The notes under the pieces were generated by a model. It saw only the letters and a program-made list of their open reading frames with translations, had not been told where the DNA came from and did no database searches. Of a stretch of DNA of 8,974 bases, positions 2,721-8,974 are shown one piece after another. Positions within the stretch are counted from its first letter, which is position 1. Each line of letters begins with the position of its first letter. Location: contig JACRBO010000084.1 of assembly GCA_016219235.1 (NCBI GenBank), forward strand, positions 1 to 8,974, read 5' to 3'. Position numbers and translations under genes: made by a program. The DNA is from Chloroflexota bacterium (GTDB taxonomy: Bacteria > Chloroflexota > Anaerolineae > Fen-1058).

Positions 2721-3461
2721 ATGACGATCAAAGGTGTGATTTTCGATTTAGGTAGTACGTTGATCGAGTATCGCGGCGAATGGCGCGCGGTGTTGAAAGG
2801 CCAGATCGGCAGCGTGCTGGACACTTTGCGTGCTAGCGGCCTGAGCCTGCCCGCTGAATTCGAGCCGCGTTACGAAGCGCTGATCGATCAGTTCTATACG
2901 CGCGGCCAGCAGGACTGGATCGAGTTCACGGCGGAATACACCCTGCAATACGCGCTGACGGAATGCGGCGCGCTGCGCGCCGATCAACCCGCGGAGATCA
3001 TCCGGGGCGCACTGGCGGCAGGCTTCGCCGAGGGCGAGAAATTGTGGGCGCCGTTTGCGGATGTCTACGCCACGCTCGATACGCTGAAGGCACGCAGCTA
3101 CAAACTGGGGATCGTCTCCAATGCGCGCGACGCGGCCAACGTGGAACGGCTGATCGATCAGGCGCAGCTGCGGTCGTGGTTCAATCCGATCGTCATCTCG
3201 GCGAACGCGGGCGTGCGCAAGCCGCATCCACGCATCTTCAAGATCGTGCTGGACGCCTGGCAGTTGCCGCCCGATCAAGTCGTCATGGTGGGCGACATGC
3301 TAGGTGCGGACATTCTCGGCGCGCACAACGCCGGCCTGCGCGGCATCTGGGCGACGATGCAGGCCGAACGCGGCGCGAATGAAGCGCATCAATACACGAT
3401 TGAGCCGGATGGAGTGATCAAGAGTTTGTCGGAGTTGCCGGGGTTGTTGGAAGGCTGGTAA
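2721..3461 (+). CDS. HAD-superfamily hydrolase-like protein with altered motif I
   Basis: A 246-residue cytoplasmic protein with the haloacid-dehalogenase fold. Motif I is FDLGSTL, with nucleophile D9. Motif II is GIVSNA with S133. Motif III is K167 in GVRKPHPRIF. Motif IV is GDMLGAD with D192 and D197. A helical cap lies between motifs I and II (about 20-110), as in type C1 enzymes such as phosphoglycolate phosphatase or 2-haloacid dehalogenase relatives. The general acid/base Asp two residues after the nucleophile (DxD) is Gly11 here, so ordinary phosphatase chemistry may be weakened or changed. Substrate unknown. ATG 2721 is chosen over an in-frame ATG at 2649 because homology begins there and the -10 box at 2709-2714 would lie inside a longer reading frame. 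Confidence 0.88.
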   Translation: MTIKGVIFDLGSTLIEYRGEWRAVLKGQIGSVLDTLRASGLSLPAEFEPRYEALIDQFYTRGQQDWIEFTAEYTLQYALTECGALRADQPAEIIRGALAAGFAEGEKLWAPFADVYATLDTLKARSYKLGIVSNARDAANVERLIDQAQLRSWFNPIVISANAGVRKPHPRIFKIVLDAWQLPPDQVVMVGDMLGADILGAHNAGLRGIWATMQAERGANEAHQYTIEPDGVIKSLSELPGLLEGW

Positions 3462-3471
3462 ATAAGGAAAC

Positions 3472-3551
3472 AAGTAGACAGGTAGATAAGTAGATAAGTA
3501 GGGAAGTAGATAAGTAGGGAAGTAGGGAAGTAGACAAGTAGATAAGTAGAT
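3472..3551. repeat. Ten tandem 8-bp units (AAGTAGNN)
   Basis: Ten consecutive octamers in perfect register fill exactly 80 bp: AAGTAG followed by AC, AT, AT, GG, AT, GG, GG, AC, AT, AT. The second unit has AGGTAG. A degenerate eleventh unit, AAGGAAAC, precedes the array at 3464-3471. The array starts 10 nt after the HAD-like stop codon. It is AT-rich and purine-rich on the plus strand, unlike the flanking genes, and shows no inverted partner. Copy number is likely to vary between relatives through slippage. Confidence 0.95.
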
Positions 3552-3557
3552 AAGGGT

Positions 3558-3612: not shown

Positions 3613-3616
3613 GAAC

Positions 3617-3672
3617 ATTATGAATTGTGCATTATTAATTGTGCATTATGAATTGTGCATTGTTAATTGTCC
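3617..3672. repeat. Four 14-bp (eight 7-bp) tandem units abutting the kinase start codon
   Basis: ATTATGAATTGTGC (3617-3630) is followed by three near-copies at 3631-3644, 3645-3658 and 3659-3672. Each is two heptamers beginning with ATT. The last unit ends exactly one base before the ATG at 3673, so the array replaces the usual ribosome-binding region and no Shine-Dalgarno is seen. If transcription starts after 3612, the array forms essentially the whole 5' leader. Confidence 0.92.
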
Positions 3673-5139
3673 ATGTCCCTTCGCACTCGCTTGCTTCTCT
3701 CCTATTTCCTCGTCGTCGTGACGTGCCTGGCCGTTATCGGGTTGGCGCTGCTGCTCTTGCTGCGCGATGCGCCCACGCAGAAACGCCTGACCACGGCGCG
3801 ACTCACCATCGAGGCGGGGGTGATTCATCGGCTGATCCGCGTGCCGCTGCAAAACAACGTCCCGCCCGAACAGATCATCCGCCGGTTGCAGGCGCTAGGC
3901 GCCAATCCTAATTCGCGCATTCTGTTGATCGACGAGCAAAGCGGCGAAGTGCTGGCCGACAGCGACAATCAACTGGCCGGCCAAAACTTGCTGAGTCTCG
4001 GCAAGACCGATCGGTTGAACAATACGCTCGTCGGTGATTTTGAATATCAGGGCACACGCTGGCTGTTCTCGACGCGGCAGGGACTCGATCGGACGGGCGG
4101 CGCGATTGAAGTGGCCGCACTGACGGAATACGATCCTGGCCCGGCGTTTCGCGATCCGATCTTTCAAGAACTGTTCCGGCCGTTGATGATGGCCGGGGCG
4201 TTGGCATTGATCGTGTCGATTGCGCTGGCGTTTATCATCACGCGCTCGGTTACTCAACCGCTGCGGCACGTGGCGCAGGCCGCGCAGCGCGTGGCGGCCG
4301 GCGATTACACGCGGCCGGTGCCGGTGGAAGGCTCGGTCGAAGTCAAAGAAGTGGCTGAGAACTTCAACCAGATGGCGCAGCGAGTACGCGATACTCAACA
4401 AAGCCAGCGTGATTTGCTGGCGAACGTCACGCATGAACTGAAGACGCCGCTCACCAGCATTCAAGGCTTTGCGCAGGCGATCAAAGACGGCGCGGCCAGC
4501 GAGCCGGAGGCGGTGCGCAGGAGCGCGACGATCATCTATGACGAAGCCGCCCGCATGGGCCGCATGGTGGCCGAGCTCCTCGATCTGGCCCGCATCGAAA
4601 GCGGCCAGATCGTAATGCGCCGCGAAATTGTCCTGATCGATCAGGTGCTGCGCAGCATCGTCGAGAAAATGGCGCCGCGTGCGCAGCAAAGCAGCGTGGC
4701 ACTCAACGCCGACATTCCCGACGGTTTGCCGTCGATCACGGGCGACGGCGATCGGCTGGCGCAGGTCTTTGGCAACCTGGTCGACAACGCCATCAAGCAC
4801 ACTCCGGCGGGTGGCAAAGTCACCGTGACGGCGCGCTTGCTGAGCGGCTCGTCGATCGCGAAGAAAAACAAGCCCTGGCCCGGCGGTATCGAAATCAGCG
4901 TGGCGGATACGGGGCATGGCATTCCGCCGGAAGATTTGTCGCGCATTTTCGAGCGCTTCTATCAGGTGGATAAATCACGCGCGCGGGCGCGATCGGGCGG
5001 CAGCAGCCTGGGGCTGGGCTTATCCATCGTGAAAGAGATCGTCACCGCGCACGGCGGATCGATTCATGCGGAGAGCGTCGTCGGCCTGGGCACGCGCTTC
5101 GTGATCGTGCTGCCCATCGAGCGGGGGAAAACGGCTTGA
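3673..5139 (+). CDS. Membrane-bound sensor histidine kinase (HAMP-HisKA-HATPase)
   Basis: A 488-residue two-component sensor kinase. A membrane helix at about 9-31 and a second at about 171-192 flank an extracytoplasmic sensor region of about 138 residues. A HAMP linker (about 192-245) follows. The dimerisation/phosphotransfer domain has the H-box NVTHELKTPL with phospho-acceptor H254. The ATPase domain has the N-box NLVDNAIKH (N372), G1 DTGHG (412-416), F-box RIFERFYQ and G2 GLGLS (G447, G449). All catalytic motifs are intact, so it should autophosphorylate and pass phosphate to a response regulator. None is encoded here: the HAD-like gene lies upstream and a toxin-antitoxin pair downstream, so it is an orphan within this view. 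The start is ambiguous. ATG 3673 is preferred; an in-frame TTG at 3667 would add two residues, and neither has a Shine-Dalgarno. Ligand unknown. Confidence 0.95.
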   Translation: MSLRTRLLLSYFLVVVTCLAVIGLALLLLLRDAPTQKRLTTARLTIEAGVIHRLIRVPLQNNVPPEQIIRRLQALGANPNSRILLIDEQSGEVLADSDNQLAGQNLLSLGKTDRLNNTLVGDFEYQGTRWLFSTRQGLDRTGGAIEVAALTEYDPGPAFRDPIFQELFRPLMMAGALALIVSIALAFIITRSVTQPLRHVAQAAQRVAAGDYTRPVPVEGSVEVKEVAENFNQMAQRVRDTQQSQRDLLANVTHELKTPLTSIQGFAQAIKDGAASEPEAVRRSATIIYDEAARMGRMVAELLDLARIESGQIVMRREIVLIDQVLRSIVEKMAPRAQQSSVALNADIPDGLPSITGDGDRLAQVFGNLVDNAIKHTPAGGKVTVTARLLSGSSIAKKNKPWPGGIEISVADTGHGIPPEDLSRIFERFYQVDKSRARARSGGSSLGLGLSIVKEIVTAHGGSIHAESVVGLGTRFVIVLPIERGKTA

Positions 5140-5400: not shown

Positions 5401-5664
5401 ATGTATGAAATCGAACTGCTGGAAGCGGCTGAAGAGCAACTTGCGCAGCTCGATCGACCAACCGGGCGGCGCTTCGTCAAGCGGCTTAACTGGCTGGCGG
5501 CAAACTTCAGCGACATTCGCCCGGAGCCGTTAACCGGCGATCTGGCCGGACTCTATAAGTTCAGGGTCGGTGATTATCGGATCGTTTACGAAGTGATTGA
5601 TACGGAACGGCTGATTATCGTACACGCGATCGGGCATCGGCGAGAAATCTACCGCAAGCGATGA
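5401..5664 (+). CDS. RelE/ParE-family type II toxin
   Basis: An 87-residue protein with the full RelE/ParE pattern: an opening strand MYEIELLEAAEEQLAQL, a long helix to about residue 35, then the hallmark PLTGDLAGLYKFRVGDYRIV (43-62), a strand YEVIDTERLIIVHAIGH, and the basic tail HRREIYRKR (79-87). R55, R60, H79, R80, R81 and Y84 are candidates for the positively charged surface and catalytic residues. Family members are either ribosome-dependent mRNA endonucleases (RelE) or gyrase poisons (ParE). The Gly-Leu-Tyr-Lys-Phe and Tyr-Arg-Ile motifs do not decide which. GGAG (5389-5392) lies 8 nt before the ATG, inside the end of the antitoxin gene, so translation is probably coupled. It is full length for the family and looks intact. 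Confidence 0.9.
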   Translation: MYEIELLEAAEEQLAQLDRPTGRRFVKRLNWLAANFSDIRPEPLTGDLAGLYKFRVGDYRIVYEVIDTERLIIVHAIGHRREIYRKR

Positions 5665-5698
5665 TCGCCGTGCTCAAATTGCTTGACGCACGGTGATC
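5663..5698. repeat. 11-bp inverted repeat spanning the toxin stop and the metH -35 box
   Basis: GATCGCCGTGC (5663-5673) pairs with GCACGGTGATC (5688-5698) over 11 positions with one G-T wobble. The stem can continue inside as TCAA (5674-5677) with TTGA (5683-5686). As RNA it would cap the 3' end of the toxin-antitoxin transcript, although no U-tract follows. As DNA it overlaps the TTGACG -35 element at 5683-5688, so it could also be an operator. The function is open. Confidence 0.6.
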
Positions 5699-5711
5699 CG
5701 ACAGTTATAAT
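5683..5711 (+). promoter_or_regulatory. metH: Strong sigma-70-type promoter of the metH leader
   Basis: TTGACG (5683-5688, five of six matches) and a perfect TATAAT (5706-5711) are separated by exactly 17 nt. Transcription should start near 5718, about 52 nt before the riboswitch and 354 nt before the metH start codon. It is the best promoter in the window, as expected where control is exerted later by a riboswitch. Confidence 0.82.
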
Positions 5712-5769
5712 TTCACCACTCAGTCTTTTAGCCAGGACCGCACATCACCCGAACACAACTCAATACGCG

Positions 5770-5946
5770 CTCATCCAGAGAGGCGGAGGGACCGGCCCGA
5801 TGAAGCCTCGGCAACCCGTTGGATGTTGGAAATTGGATGTTAGAGATTAGATGTTGGCGGCAAGCGCCCCAACTTCCAATCTCCAACTTCCAACCTCCAA
5901 TTTCCAAACCCGGTGCCAATTCCGGCAGAGACATCTGGAAGATGAG
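5770..5946 (+). promoter_or_regulatory. SAM-I (S-box) riboswitch aptamer
   Basis: The S-box consensus is almost complete. P1 is CTCATC (5770-5775) with GATGAG (5941-5946). AGAGAGGCGGAGGGACCGG (5777-5795) carries the 5' strand of P2: GAGGC (5780-5784) pairs with GCCTC (5805-5809), and GGG pairs with CCC. The kink-turn GATGAA (5799-5804) and the GGCAACC junction into P3 follow. The other side has GGTGCCAATTCCGGCAGAG. Loop CCGG (5792-5795) can form the pseudoknot with CCGG (5922-5925). P4 is CAGA-GACA-TCTG (5926-5937). The known ligand of this class is S-adenosylmethionine, and metH downstream fits methionine control. The aptamer is 177 nt, well above the usual 100-120, entirely because of a very long P3 arm (separate entry). 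Confidence 0.96.
5819..5907 (+). repeat. Hyperextended riboswitch P3 arm built from inverted heptamer arrays
   Basis: The 5' arm is a run of heptamers: TTGGATG, TTGGAAA, TTGGATG, TTAGAGA, TTAGATG, TTGGCGG (5819-5860). The 3' arm is CCAACTT, CCAATCT, CCAACTT, CCAACCT, CCAATTT, CCAA (5869-5907). Opposed positions 5819/5907 through 5857/5869 keep one register with no bulge: 31 Watson-Crick pairs, one G-T and seven mismatches in 39. The apex can form GGCG-GCAAG-CGCC. In S-box RNAs the end of P3 points away from the ligand site and varies in length, so the core should still fold. Confidence 0.92.
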
Positions 5947-5975
5947 GATTTGTCCGATCGGTTTGACGCCTCTTC
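5941..5975 (+). promoter_or_regulatory. Antiterminator of the SAM riboswitch
   Basis: GATGAGG (5941-5947), which includes the 3' strand of aptamer helix P1, can pair six of seven positions with CCTCTTC (5969-5975), which is mostly the 5' arm of the terminator. The two helices exclude each other: without SAM the antiterminator forms and metH is read through; with SAM, P1 holds GATGAG and the terminator forms. The partition follows the standard S-box OFF switch. Confidence 0.8.
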
Positions 5976-5993
5976 ACTGGAAGGGGCGTTTTT
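5966..5993 (+). terminator. Intrinsic terminator of the SAM riboswitch expression platform
   Basis: ACGCCTCTT (5966-5974) pairs with AAGGGGCGT (5981-5989) over nine positions, one of them G-T, around the loop CACTGG. A run of five T follows (5989-5993), then CTT. It lies 20 nt after the aptamer, the normal place for the expression platform. Confidence 0.92.
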
Positions 5994-5995
5994 CT

Positions 5996-6054
5996 TGATG
6001 AGTAACGAGTGACGAGTGAACAACGCACCCTCACTCGTCACTCATTAATCGTCA
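5996..6054 (+). repeat. 24-position hairpin of heptamer repeats between terminator and RBS
   Basis: Arms 5996-6019 and 6031-6054 oppose 24 positions with 22 paired, including a perfect 13-bp core: GAGTGACGAGTGA (6007-6019) with TCACTCGTCACTC (6031-6043). The loop is 11 nt. The 5' arm again reads as 7-nt units (GAGTAAC, GAGTGAC, GAGTGAA). It starts 2 nt after the terminator T-run and ends 2 nt before the ribosome binding site, so every full-length metH mRNA carries it. It might stabilise the leader or affect ribosome access; it may also simply be a tolerated repeat. Confidence 0.9.
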
Positions 6055-6071: not shown

Positions 6072-8974
6072 TTGAAAATCATGCCTCACACGAATCGCCG
6101 TTATCTCGATGCGTTGGCCGATCACGTCGTGGTGTTTGACGGCGCGATGGGCACAAGCGTGCAAACGTGCAACCTCGGCCCGATCGACTTCGGCGGCGAA
6201 ACGCTCAACGGCTGCAATGATTATCTGGTGATGACGCGGCCCGATGTGGTCGAGTCGATCCACGCGTCGTTTCTGGCGGTCGGCGCGGAAGCGATCGAGA
6301 CGGACACCTTCCGATCGAACCGCCTGACGATGCGCGAATACGGCCTGCAAGATCGCATCGTCGAGATCAATTGCGCGGCGGCCTCATTGGCGCGGCGCGT
6401 AGCCGATCGGTTTGAGCGCGAAACCGGCGTCCTGCGTTTTGTCGCAGGCTCGATCGGCCCGTCAGGCATGCTGCCATCCACGAACGATCCGACTTTGAGC
6501 AACATCAGTTTTCAAGAACTGGTCGATGTCTTCCGCGAACAATGCGTCGGTTTGATTCAGGGCGGCGCGGATTTGCTGTTAATCGAAACGCAGCAAGACA
6601 TCCTCGAGACGAAGGCCGCGGTACATGGCGCGTGGCGCGCGTTTGAAGAGACGGGCATTCGTATTCCGGTGCAGACGCAGATCACGCTGGATACTTCGGG
6701 GCGCATGTTGTTGGGCACAGATATTGCGGCGGCGTTGACCACGCTGGAATCACTGCCGATTGTGGACGTGATCGGCCTGAACTGCTCGACCGGTCCGGAC
6801 TACATGCGCGAACCGGTGCGCTATTTGTGCGCGCATTCGCGCAAGCCCATCTCGGTGATTCCGAACGCGGGTCTGCCGCTCAACGTCGATGGCGTGGCCG
6901 TGTACCCGATGAAGCCGGTGCCGCTGTCCGAGACGCTGGCGGAGTTTGTGACCGAACTCGGCGTAAACGCGGTGGGCGGTTGCTGCGGCACGATTCCCGA
7001 ACACATTCGTGAGATTGTCGAGCGGGTGCGCGGGTTGAAACCAAAGGTGCGCGAGATCGAATATGCGCCGCTGGCCTCATCCGCGATGCGGGCGACGCCG
7101 CTGATTCAAGATCCCGCGCCGTTGATCGTGGGGGAACGCGTCAATTCGCAGGGCAGCCGCAAGATCAAGAAGCTGCTGCTGGAAGATGACTACGACGGCA
7201 TTCTCGCCGTGGCGCGCGATCAGGTTGAGGGCGGCGCGCACGTACTGGATATTTGCGTGGCAATGACCGAGCGCAGCGACGAAGCTGCGCAGATGCACAC
7301 GCTGGTCAAGAAGTTGCAGATGAGCGTCGAGACGCCGCTGATGATCGACTCGACCGAGGCCGAGGTGTTGAAGACCGCCCTGGAGATGAATCCAGGCCGC
7401 GCCATCATCAATTCGATCAACCTTGAAAATGGGCGCAAGCGCTGCGATGCAGTGCTGCCGCTGGCGGTGGCGCATGGCGCGGCCGTGATCGCGTTGACCA
7501 TCGACGAGCAGGGCATGGCCAAAACGGCCGATGCGAAGTTGGCTGTGGCCAAGCGCATCTACGACATCGCCGTGAACGAATATGGCCTGTCGCCGGATGC
7601 ATTGATCTACGACACGCTTACATTTACGTTGGCGACGGGCGCGGCTGATATGGCCGATTCGGCGATCGAGACGATGGAAGGCATCCGTCAGATCAAGGCA
7701 GCCTTGCCGGGTGTGCTCACTTCGTTGGGCGTGAGCAACGTATCGTTTGGCCTGAATCCCGCTGCACGCGCCGCCATCAACAGCGTGTTCCTGTATCACT
7801 GCGTGCAGGCCGGCCTCGATATGGCGCTGGTGCATCCCAAGGACATCACGCCGTATGCGGAGATTAATCCGGCAGTGCGCACGTTGTGCGATGACTTGAT
7901 CCTCAATCGTACGCCGGATGCGTTGACGAAACTCATCGCGCATTTCGAGAACGTCAAAGTCGATGCAAGTAAGCCCGTCGAAGACCCGACCGAAGGTTTC
8001 AGCGTCGAGCAGAAGATTCACTGGATGATCGTGCATCGCAAGAAAGAGGGCATTGAGCCGTTGATCGATGTCTCAATTCAGGCCCACGGCGCAACGGCCA
8101 ATGATGGCGCGGTGTGGACGCTGAACAATGTGCTGCTGCCCGCCATGAAAGAAGTCGGCGATAAATTCGGCGCGGGTGAATTGATTTTGCCGTTTGTGCT
8201 GCAGAGCGCCGAAGTGATGAAAAAAGCGGTGGCGCATCTGGAGAAATCGCTCGATCGCAAAGAGGGCACGACCAAAGGCAAGGTCGTACTCGCTACTGTT
8301 TATGGCGATGTGCACGACATCGGCAAGAGTCTGGTCAACACGATTCTGAGCAATAACGGCTACACCGTCTTCGATCTGGGCAAGCAGGTACCCGCCAACG
8401 TCATCATCGATAAAGCCGTAGAAGTCAGCGCGACGGCGATCGGTTTGAGCGCGCTGCTCGTGTCCACTTCGAAGCAAATGCCGTTGATCGTGAATGAACT
8501 ACAGCGGCGCGGCCTGCACTTCCCGGTGCTCATCGGCGGCGCGGCGATCAATCGGCGTTTCGGGCGGCGCATCCTTTTTACGGAAACGAAGGTGCCTTAC
8601 GACGCGGGCGTGTTCTATTGCAAAGACGCCTTCGAGGGTCTGGACACGATGGAGAAGTTGATCGATCCCAACGAGCGTGGTGATTTGATCGGGCGCATCA
8701 TTGCGGAGGCGGAAGCGGAGGTTAAAGCGGTAACTGGTCAATCGGTAACTGGTCAATCGGGCAAGACGCAACCGGTTAACCAGTCAACCAATTACCAGTT
8801 GACCAATATCCCGGTTCCCCCCTTCTGGGGCAGCCGCGTCATTCGCGATATGCCACTGGAGATGGTGTTTCAGCATCTCGACATCGACGAGTTGTATCGC
8901 CTGCAATGGGGCGCGAAGAACACGCACGGCGACGAGTGGGTGAAACTCAAAGCCGAGTTCGATGCGCGGCTCGA
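6072..8974 (+). CDS. metH: Cobalamin-dependent methionine synthase (3' end outside window)
   Basis: Transfers a methyl group from 5-methyltetrahydrofolate via methylcobalamin to homocysteine, giving methionine, in the cytoplasm. The 967 codons present hold, in order: the homocysteine-binding barrel (about 15-330) with zinc ligands C238, C304 and C305 (LNCSTG, GGCCGT); the pterin-binding barrel (about 350-620; VGERVNSQGS, GAHVLDI); the helical cap (about 640-730; MKEVGDKFGAGELILPFVLQ); the B12 domain with D746-V-H748-D-I-G, later SALLVST and IGGAA; a repeat-derived linker (about 880-915); and the start of the SAM-dependent activation domain (VPPFWGSRV, DIDELYRLQWG). Full-length proteins run to about 1150-1230 residues, so roughly 200-250 are missing only because of the window edge. 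TTG 6072 is preferred over ATG 6081 because of RBS spacing. Expression is under the SAM-I riboswitch directly upstream. All key residues are present. Confidence 0.96.
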   Translation, partial: MKIMPHTNRRYLDALADHVVVFDGAMGTSVQTCNLGPIDFGGETLNGCNDYLVMTRPDVVESIHASFLAVGAEAIETDTFRSNRLTMREYGLQDRIVEINCAAASLARRVADRFERETGVLRFVAGSIGPSGMLPSTNDPTLSNISFQELVDVFREQCVGLIQGGADLLLIETQQDILETKAAVHGAWRAFEETGIRIPVQTQITLDTSGRMLLGTDIAAALTTLESLPIVDVIGLNCSTGPDYMREPVRYLCAHSRKPISVIPNAGLPLNVDGVAVYPMKPVPLSETLAEFVTELGVNAVGGCCGTIPEHIREIVERVRGLKPKVREIEYAPLASSAMRATPLIQDPAPLIVGERVNSQGSRKIKKLLLEDDYDGILAVARDQVEGGAHVLDICVAMTERSDEAAQMHTLVKKLQMSVETPLMIDSTEAEVLKTALEMNPGRAIINSINLENGRKRCDAVLPLAVAHGAAVIALTIDEQGMAKTADAKLAVAKRIYDIAVNEYGLSPDALIYDTLTFTLATGAADMADSAIETMEGIRQIKAALPGVLTSLGVSNVSFGLNPAARAAINSVFLYHCVQAGLDMALVHPKDITPYAEINPAVRTLCDDLILNRTPDALTKLIAHFENVKVDASKPVEDPTEGFSVEQKIHWMIVHRKKEGIEPLIDVSIQAHGATANDGAVWTLNNVLLPAMKEVGDKFGAGELILPFVLQSAEVMKKAVAHLEKSLDRKEGTTKGKVVLATVYGDVHDIGKSLVNTILSNNGYTVFDLGKQVPANVIIDKAVEVSATAIGLSALLVSTSKQMPLIVNELQRRGLHFPVLIGGAAINRRFGRRILFTETKVPYDAGVFYCKDAFEGLDTMEKLIDPNERGDLIGRIIAEAEAEVKAVTGQSVTGQSGKTQPVNQSTNYQLTNIPVPPFWGSRVIRDMPLEMVFQHLDIDELYRLQWGAKNTHGDEWVKLKAEFDARL
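8729..8807 (+). repeat. In-frame palindromic repeat inside the metH inter-domain linker
   Basis: GGTAACTGGTCAATC occurs twice in tandem (8729-8743, 8744-8758) and encodes VTGQS-VTGQS. A complementary stretch at 8774-8807 can pair back: AACTGGT (8732-8738) with ACCAGTT (8794-8800), and ACTGGT (8748-8753) with ACCAGT (8779-8784), plus short GGT/ACC and AAT/ATT segments, with single-base bulges. It encodes a polar segment rich in T, Q, S and N (about residues 887-913) between the B12 and activation domains, where natural MetH linkers vary. The unit is 7+8=15 nt, i.e. five codons, so unit gain or loss keeps the frame. Confidence 0.85.

Follow-up and report, generated by a model that had tools for sequence, protein, structure and literature searches.

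A SAM-I riboswitch before metH in a Chloroflexota bacterium carries a P3 arm built of heptamer repeats that are dispersed in related genomes

The stretch of DNA analysed here, 8,974 nucleotides of a Chloroflexota bacterium (termed the window), carries in its second half, in this order, a promoter-like site, a SAM-I aptamer, a terminator-like stem and metH, the gene of the cobalamin-dependent methionine synthase, that runs past the window end (Table 1). SAM is a methyl donor, and SAM-I (S-box) is an RNA switch that senses it. The metH product contains the Pfam families S-methyl_trans (PF02574), Pterin_bind (PF00809), B12-binding (PF02310) and B12-binding_2 (PF02607), and it is 95% identical over 663 residues to MetH of Thermoflexales Go_SlAct_bin_560, 87% identical to that of Anaerolineae fen_1063 and 86% to that of Thermoflexales BIN19. 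The linker before its last domain differs among relatives; in the window the corresponding coding region (8728-8807) contains direct repeats of 15 bases, which together make up an inverted pair, and, by eye, the coding of this linker is repeat-derived in the window and in the relative G001 (G and L numbers denote genomes and loci throughout).

Table 1. Features of the metH leader and of the enlarged P3 helix (window coordinates).
Feature	Position	Strand	Basis
Promoter-like TTGACG-17-TATAAT	5683..5711	+	11/12 consensus matches only; mean of 0.2 sites in shuffles
SAM-I (S-box) aptamer	5768..5948	+	RF00162, 73.1 bits, model positions 1-108
5' arm of P3 enlargement, TTGGANN-type heptamers	5819..5857	+	
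Apical part of enlarged P3, between both arms	5858..5868	+	
3' arm of P3, TCCAANN-type heptamers, complement of the 5' arm	5869..5907	+	
Intrinsic terminator-like stem with T tail, likely expression platform	5965..5990	+	consensus match
metH (cobalamin-dependent methionine synthase), runs past window end	6072..8972	+	Pfam

The aptamer was assigned with cmscan, whose RF00162 match covers the entire model and exceeds the gathering score of 44.4 bits, with consensus bases aligned at the P2 loop and at J3/4. Together with the sulfur/methionine gene downstream and the terminator-like stem in the place of an expression platform, this full-length covariance-model match makes the leader alike to known SAM-I members, and both the SAM-I identity and the consensus-like S-box core named in the first-pass annotation were borne out by the Rfam model. 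In the minimum-energy fold of the whole leader, which is predicted to be the alternative and not the ligand-bound form, the aptamer 5' strand 5779-5785 is paired with 5967-5973 of the terminator stem, and this pairing is a candidate antiterminator that the energy model suggests. The arrangement points to a SAM-I riboswitch that acts by transcription attenuation, through which SAM would control metH.

Several further features surround the leader. A small ORF upstream of the riboswitch (5401-5664) matches a ParE-toxin family (PF05016, 49.3 bits), and at 3458-3554 and 3616-3674, before a sensor kinase gene, there are tandem arrays of 8-base GTAGATAA-like and 14/7-base CATTATGAATTGTG units. The gap between the terminator and metH (5996-6054) holds another inverted array, made of GAGTGAC-type units, with 24-base arms that are 88% complementary; by eye, a similar inverted array is present at the equivalent place in G001, though the aptamer is gone there. 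In the phage collection only two matches were found, of 46 bases each, both at the 5' half of the aptamer core. MIR2275 matched the minus strand at 30.4 bits (gathering score 60.5), which was put down to chance similarity with the stem and dismissed.

The RF00162 alignment places 85 bases opposite six model positions at the tip of P3, the helix in which the lengthening had originally been located. The two arms are paired over 39 positions without a gap, with 31 Watson-Crick pairs, one G-U pair and seven mismatches, in full agreement with the bulge-free stem of 32 paired positions described before. The best hairpin score in 5768-5993 was 19.0, compared with a maximum of 12.5 across 300 mononucleotide shuffles, and the fold of P3 (5815-5913) has a predicted energy of -46.8 kcal/mol (z -8.5), a stability reached by 0 of 200 shuffles. 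Tandem Repeats Finder reported period 14 in each arm, with period 7 as a further call in the 3' arm, and autocorrelation across P3 is strongest at period 7 (z 6.6). The energy model has the arm folding back on itself, in line with the earlier reading: its mean pairing probability with outside bases is 0.002, and when the arm was swapped for a tetraloop, all 49 non-arm pairs of the minimum-energy structure were unchanged. With 97 bases this P3 exceeds the median of 38.5 in 92 collected SAM-I P3 sequences, a set that was partly chosen for length.

RF00162 was present in all ten genomes reached via the ten nearest MetH loci, with 24 matches, five of which have a P3 of at least 60 bases (L099, L090, L102, L104 and the interrupted L103/L174), as well as in at least 140 of 150 relatives of G002; nearly all loci that bear titles come from metagenome assemblies. 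No SAM-I match was found in the six genomes (five of them Gemmatimonadota) behind L069-L072, L076 and L080. The 92 P3 sequences are distinct, partly length-selected, and neither a random nor an independent sample; 28 of them have at least 60 bases. Where P4 was readable as well (73 sequences), P3 reached 60 bases in 20 cases and P4 in one. Among the 40 P3s of at least 45 bases the best period was 7 in 13 and 8 in four, each with z of at least 3, and none of the other periods from 3 to 13 was the best at this level; the remaining 23 show no such period, so that a long P3 need not be built of repeats.

TTGGANN chains were found in ten of the 92 P3 sequences, which come from the window and six relatives, and all ten are inverted pairs with TTGGA first, the ten arms not being independent of each other, since G002, G067 and G124 contribute two each and the metH arms have a common ancestry. 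The chains precede metH in the window, G002 (L002/L102) and G011 (L145), metK in G001 (L099) and G002 (L104), and a metY-like gene in G004 (L090), the gene labels of relatives being read from translations and not from a family search; the others belong to G067 (L158, L159) and G124 (L164, L165). In G001, G002, G004 and G011 such arms are carried by five of nine SAM-I P3s, a high share if repeats are merely tolerated, which hints at targeting or benefit. Short P3s of 16 to 32 bases are present in G001 and G002 too (L087, L089, L095), and one P3 of G001 (L174) is 187 bases long and has TAGT-type octamers. Long, near-perfect palindromic SAM-I P3 arms without heptamers were observed in G131 (L162, L163).

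The three metH orthologues that have the arm (window, G002 and G011) are identical at 80-81 of 86 core positions per pair. When split at the predicted apex, their 5' and 3' arms measure 46 and 47 bases in the window, 53 and 54 in G002, and 37 and 39 in G011. Compared with the window, G011 (core 81/86) has an arm that is 7 bases shorter on each side, the 5' loss appearing in the alignment as one gap and the 3' loss as two, and G002 (core 80/86) has arms that are 7 bases longer on each side by the apex split, with the length difference spread over several gaps of the alignment. These 7-base differences on both sides indicate that, in the three orthologues, the arm varies in steps of one unit, with its two sides remaining of similar length. 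The related arms in G002 and G011 imply that the arm probably predates the species of the window; in G003, whose MetH is 76% identical, the metH leader has a P3 of 16 bases. The idea of an ancient conserved fold, which the first-pass annotation had set against an insertion, thus survives as to the sharing of the arm by near orthologues and fails as to deep conservation. The metH leader of G001 (L001 9880-10000) gave no RF00162 match; a terminator-like stem is kept there, by eye, just after a TATAAT-like site, and the metH riboswitch of this genome seems to have been lost, with the terminator left behind.

Is the pairing of the arms more exact than the repeated motif demands? Permutation of the unit order gave a mean z of -1.10 for riboswitch arms (n=10; window -2.26) and of -1.21 for other hairpins (n=14). 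The excess of matched units is weak and alike in both groups, hence the pairing is largely a consequence of the motif being repeated, and since riboswitch arms are paired no better than non-riboswitch hairpins, exact pairing is not clearly selected.

A generic hairpin scan was performed on samples of 190 kb from G002, 219 kb from G001, 240 kb from G041 and 160 kb from G022, in which 6, 20, 15 and 7 hairpins, respectively, scored at least 14. As hairpins of this score are few in the sampled DNA, the notion of genomes rich in such hairpins was abandoned, and a TTGGANN-specific search was used instead. TTGGA-type chains of at least four units numbered four in the G002 sample, three of them in deliberately included riboswitch contigs, and none in the samples of G001, G041 and G022; period-7 arrays of other units were present in the samples.

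The specific search, for three TTGGANN units with up to two mismatches in eight genomes, counts matches, of which one array may yield several. There were 82 matches in G001 (19 for the reversed control), 126 in G002 (27), 175 in G004 (33), 252 in G011 (76), 752 in G067 (225) and 786 in G124 (117), i.e., an excess of 3.3 to 6.7 times in these six genomes; it was absent in G003 (5, control 4) and G013 (0, control 1). TTGGANN arrays are scattered genome-wide in six of the eight relatives searched, and it is in relatives' genomes only that the dispersal is seen; the 8,974 bases of the window have no further chain of at least four units. In 30 fetched array loci, several of them overlapping, no Rfam match reached the gathering score. 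At 40 non-riboswitch array sites of G001 and G002, viewed with flanks of about 130 bases, 14 TTGGA-first inverted pairs, one opposite pair and 25 sites with neither were counted. The TTGGA-first pairing at 14 of 40 sites compared with 10 of 10 in P3 gives a Fisher p of 2e-4, a value that ignores shared ancestry. An 18-mer, TTGGACGCTTCGCGTGGA, which holds CGCTTCGCG between two units, has 21 matches in five of the eight genomes versus 3 for its reversed control; it is common, in exact form, to the metK P3 of G001 and other sites of the same genome, and of 19 contexts viewed by eye, 17 have a TTGGA-type unit next to it, on one flank or both. Also by eye, the hairpins L304 and L306 of G002 are similar in their loops too, and L298, a TTGGANN array, resembles L313 in its flanks, the two lying in an apparently orthologous coding region of G001 and G002.

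Repeat-built arms are present in other structured RNAs as well. Cobalamin riboswitches were matched once in each of six of the eight genomes; inverted TAGTNNNN octamer arms were found in those of G001, G004, G011 and G124, a similar arm with other units in G030 and a short one in G002 (partly by eye). The arms of G001, G004 and G011 have period 8 with z of 5.8 to 7.9. The regular-expression extraction was readable for 7 of 36 cobalamin loci, and for 3 of 30 from a wider search; in the three readable loci of other relatives no 7- or 8-base period was found. The TAGT octamer is dispersed likewise, with 54 matches in G001 (control 4), 10 in G002 (0), 139 in G004 (3), 68 in G011 (3) and 277 in G124 (0), and such dispersal is absent in G067 (1, control 44), G003 (0) and G013 (0). 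By eye, a repeat arm was seen in one of six TPP riboswitches (G067) and a short heptamer stem in one of seven RNase P matches (G030, below the gathering score). It might be speculated that Chloroflexota harbour several self-spreading hairpin repeat families of 7-8 base units, which preferentially enter or grow in the apical loops of structured RNAs, namely SAM-I, cobalamin and TPP riboswitches and perhaps RNase P RNA, and are a principal origin of new peripheral domains in the RNAs of this phylum; we regard so broad a statement as rather doubtful.

We favour, with a probability of about 0.72, the explanation that dispersed repeats have settled in a peripheral helix that tolerates them, with selection keeping only arms that are paired and balanced. 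The P3 of the window would have been enlarged by a copy of the degenerate, genome-dispersed heptamer repeat TTGGANN, which elsewhere takes the form of one-sided arrays and of TTGGA-first inverted pairs. This repeat would spread, and its copy number would shift by whole units, presumably through slippage and copying. P3 could accept the repeat since the tip of this helix is directed away from the ligand site, and selection at the RNA level would retain only inverted arms of roughly balanced length, so that the folding of P3 is preserved; for the arm as such, near-neutrality is the most likely state. The first-pass annotation had instead taken it for a palindrome that grew inside the RNA; on this view it would have arisen only here, from the P3 stem via slippage and template switching, and the unit-sized length differences in both arms among orthologues are in line with this. 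However, TTGGANN is matched many times across the genomes of relatives, it recurs in P3 before other genes, and the metK arm of G001 shares an exact 18-base stretch with other sites of G001, which leaves purely local growth very improbable.

The arm could also be functional, i.e., tune co-transcriptional folding or timing, stabilise the leader or bind a protein, and be under positive selection. The five of nine SAM-I riboswitches with TTGGANN arms, the octamer arms that four genomes have in their cobalamin riboswitches and the consistent pairing in the ten TTGGANN P3s argue for a function, but G001 and G002 also contain the short P3s described above, the length and the units vary between orthologues, and the pairing is no better than outside riboswitches; such a role is therefore considered unlikely. 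Much of the same distribution might be produced by a mobile inverted-repeat unit, whose paired form moves as such and prefers hairpin loops or structured RNA genes. It would be consistent with the 18-mer common to dispersed sites and one riboswitch, and with the single opposite pair beside 14 TTGGA-first pairs at the 40 non-riboswitch sites, yet the 25 sites with neither kind of pair fit it poorly. By hand arithmetic from the TTGGANN match counts, about 0.07 chance matches are expected in nine 400-base leaders, five of which carry an array, but this expectation rises to about 0.7 if arrays are assumed to be confined to about a tenth of the genome. A unit moving in paired form is thus judged improbable, and the capture of a dispersed repeat by a tolerant helix remains the preferred explanation.

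Both components of this explanation have precedents, which are compared here with excerpts of the cited papers. Riboswitches are known to carry stable stem-loops inserted at set positions (PMC2258182); unlike the insertions described in that excerpt, the arms reported here belong to a dispersed heptamer family shared across genes and genomes. In the trnL group I intron of Nostoc, P6b is a heptanucleotide stem, of Class I (TDNGATT) or Class II (NNTGAGT) repeats, which undergoes unit-sized length changes and in which one repeat class was replaced by another (PMC4476775, PMC3488679). The P3 arm is similarly a peripheral helix of a structured RNA made from degenerate pairing heptamers, with complementary heptamers in both arms and whole-unit length changes, but the RNA, the phylum and the repeat unit are different, and no homology is claimed. 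For the RNase P RNA of heterocystous cyanobacteria, the title of Vioque (1997; cited in PMC2858038) indicates STRR heptamers, which would likewise be genome repeats inside a structured RNA gene, though not a riboswitch. The TAACTGA heptamers of Beggiatoaceae are dispersed too and mostly intergenic; as presented in the excerpt, they are directly repeated and for the most part precede start codons, a single indirect repeat being described for the genome, in contrast to the inverted stems found here, and an earlier proposal is related there that polymerase slippage is favoured by 7-base repeats (PMC4679880). No earlier report of heptamer-built riboswitch arms was found in the open-licence library searched. 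Stem insertions and heptamer-built stems are thus already known, and what appears to be new is the repeat-built riboswitch arms in Chloroflexota.

The origin of peripheral domains in structured RNAs is usually out of sight. Here, within one clade, orthologous and paralogous riboswitches carry short, TTGGANN and TAGT-octamer P3s side by side, and like repeats are dispersed in the genomes. One may ask whether the spread of repeats builds RNA domains, and whether an arm of 90 bases is tolerated without a change in switching? In this clade both questions are directly testable.
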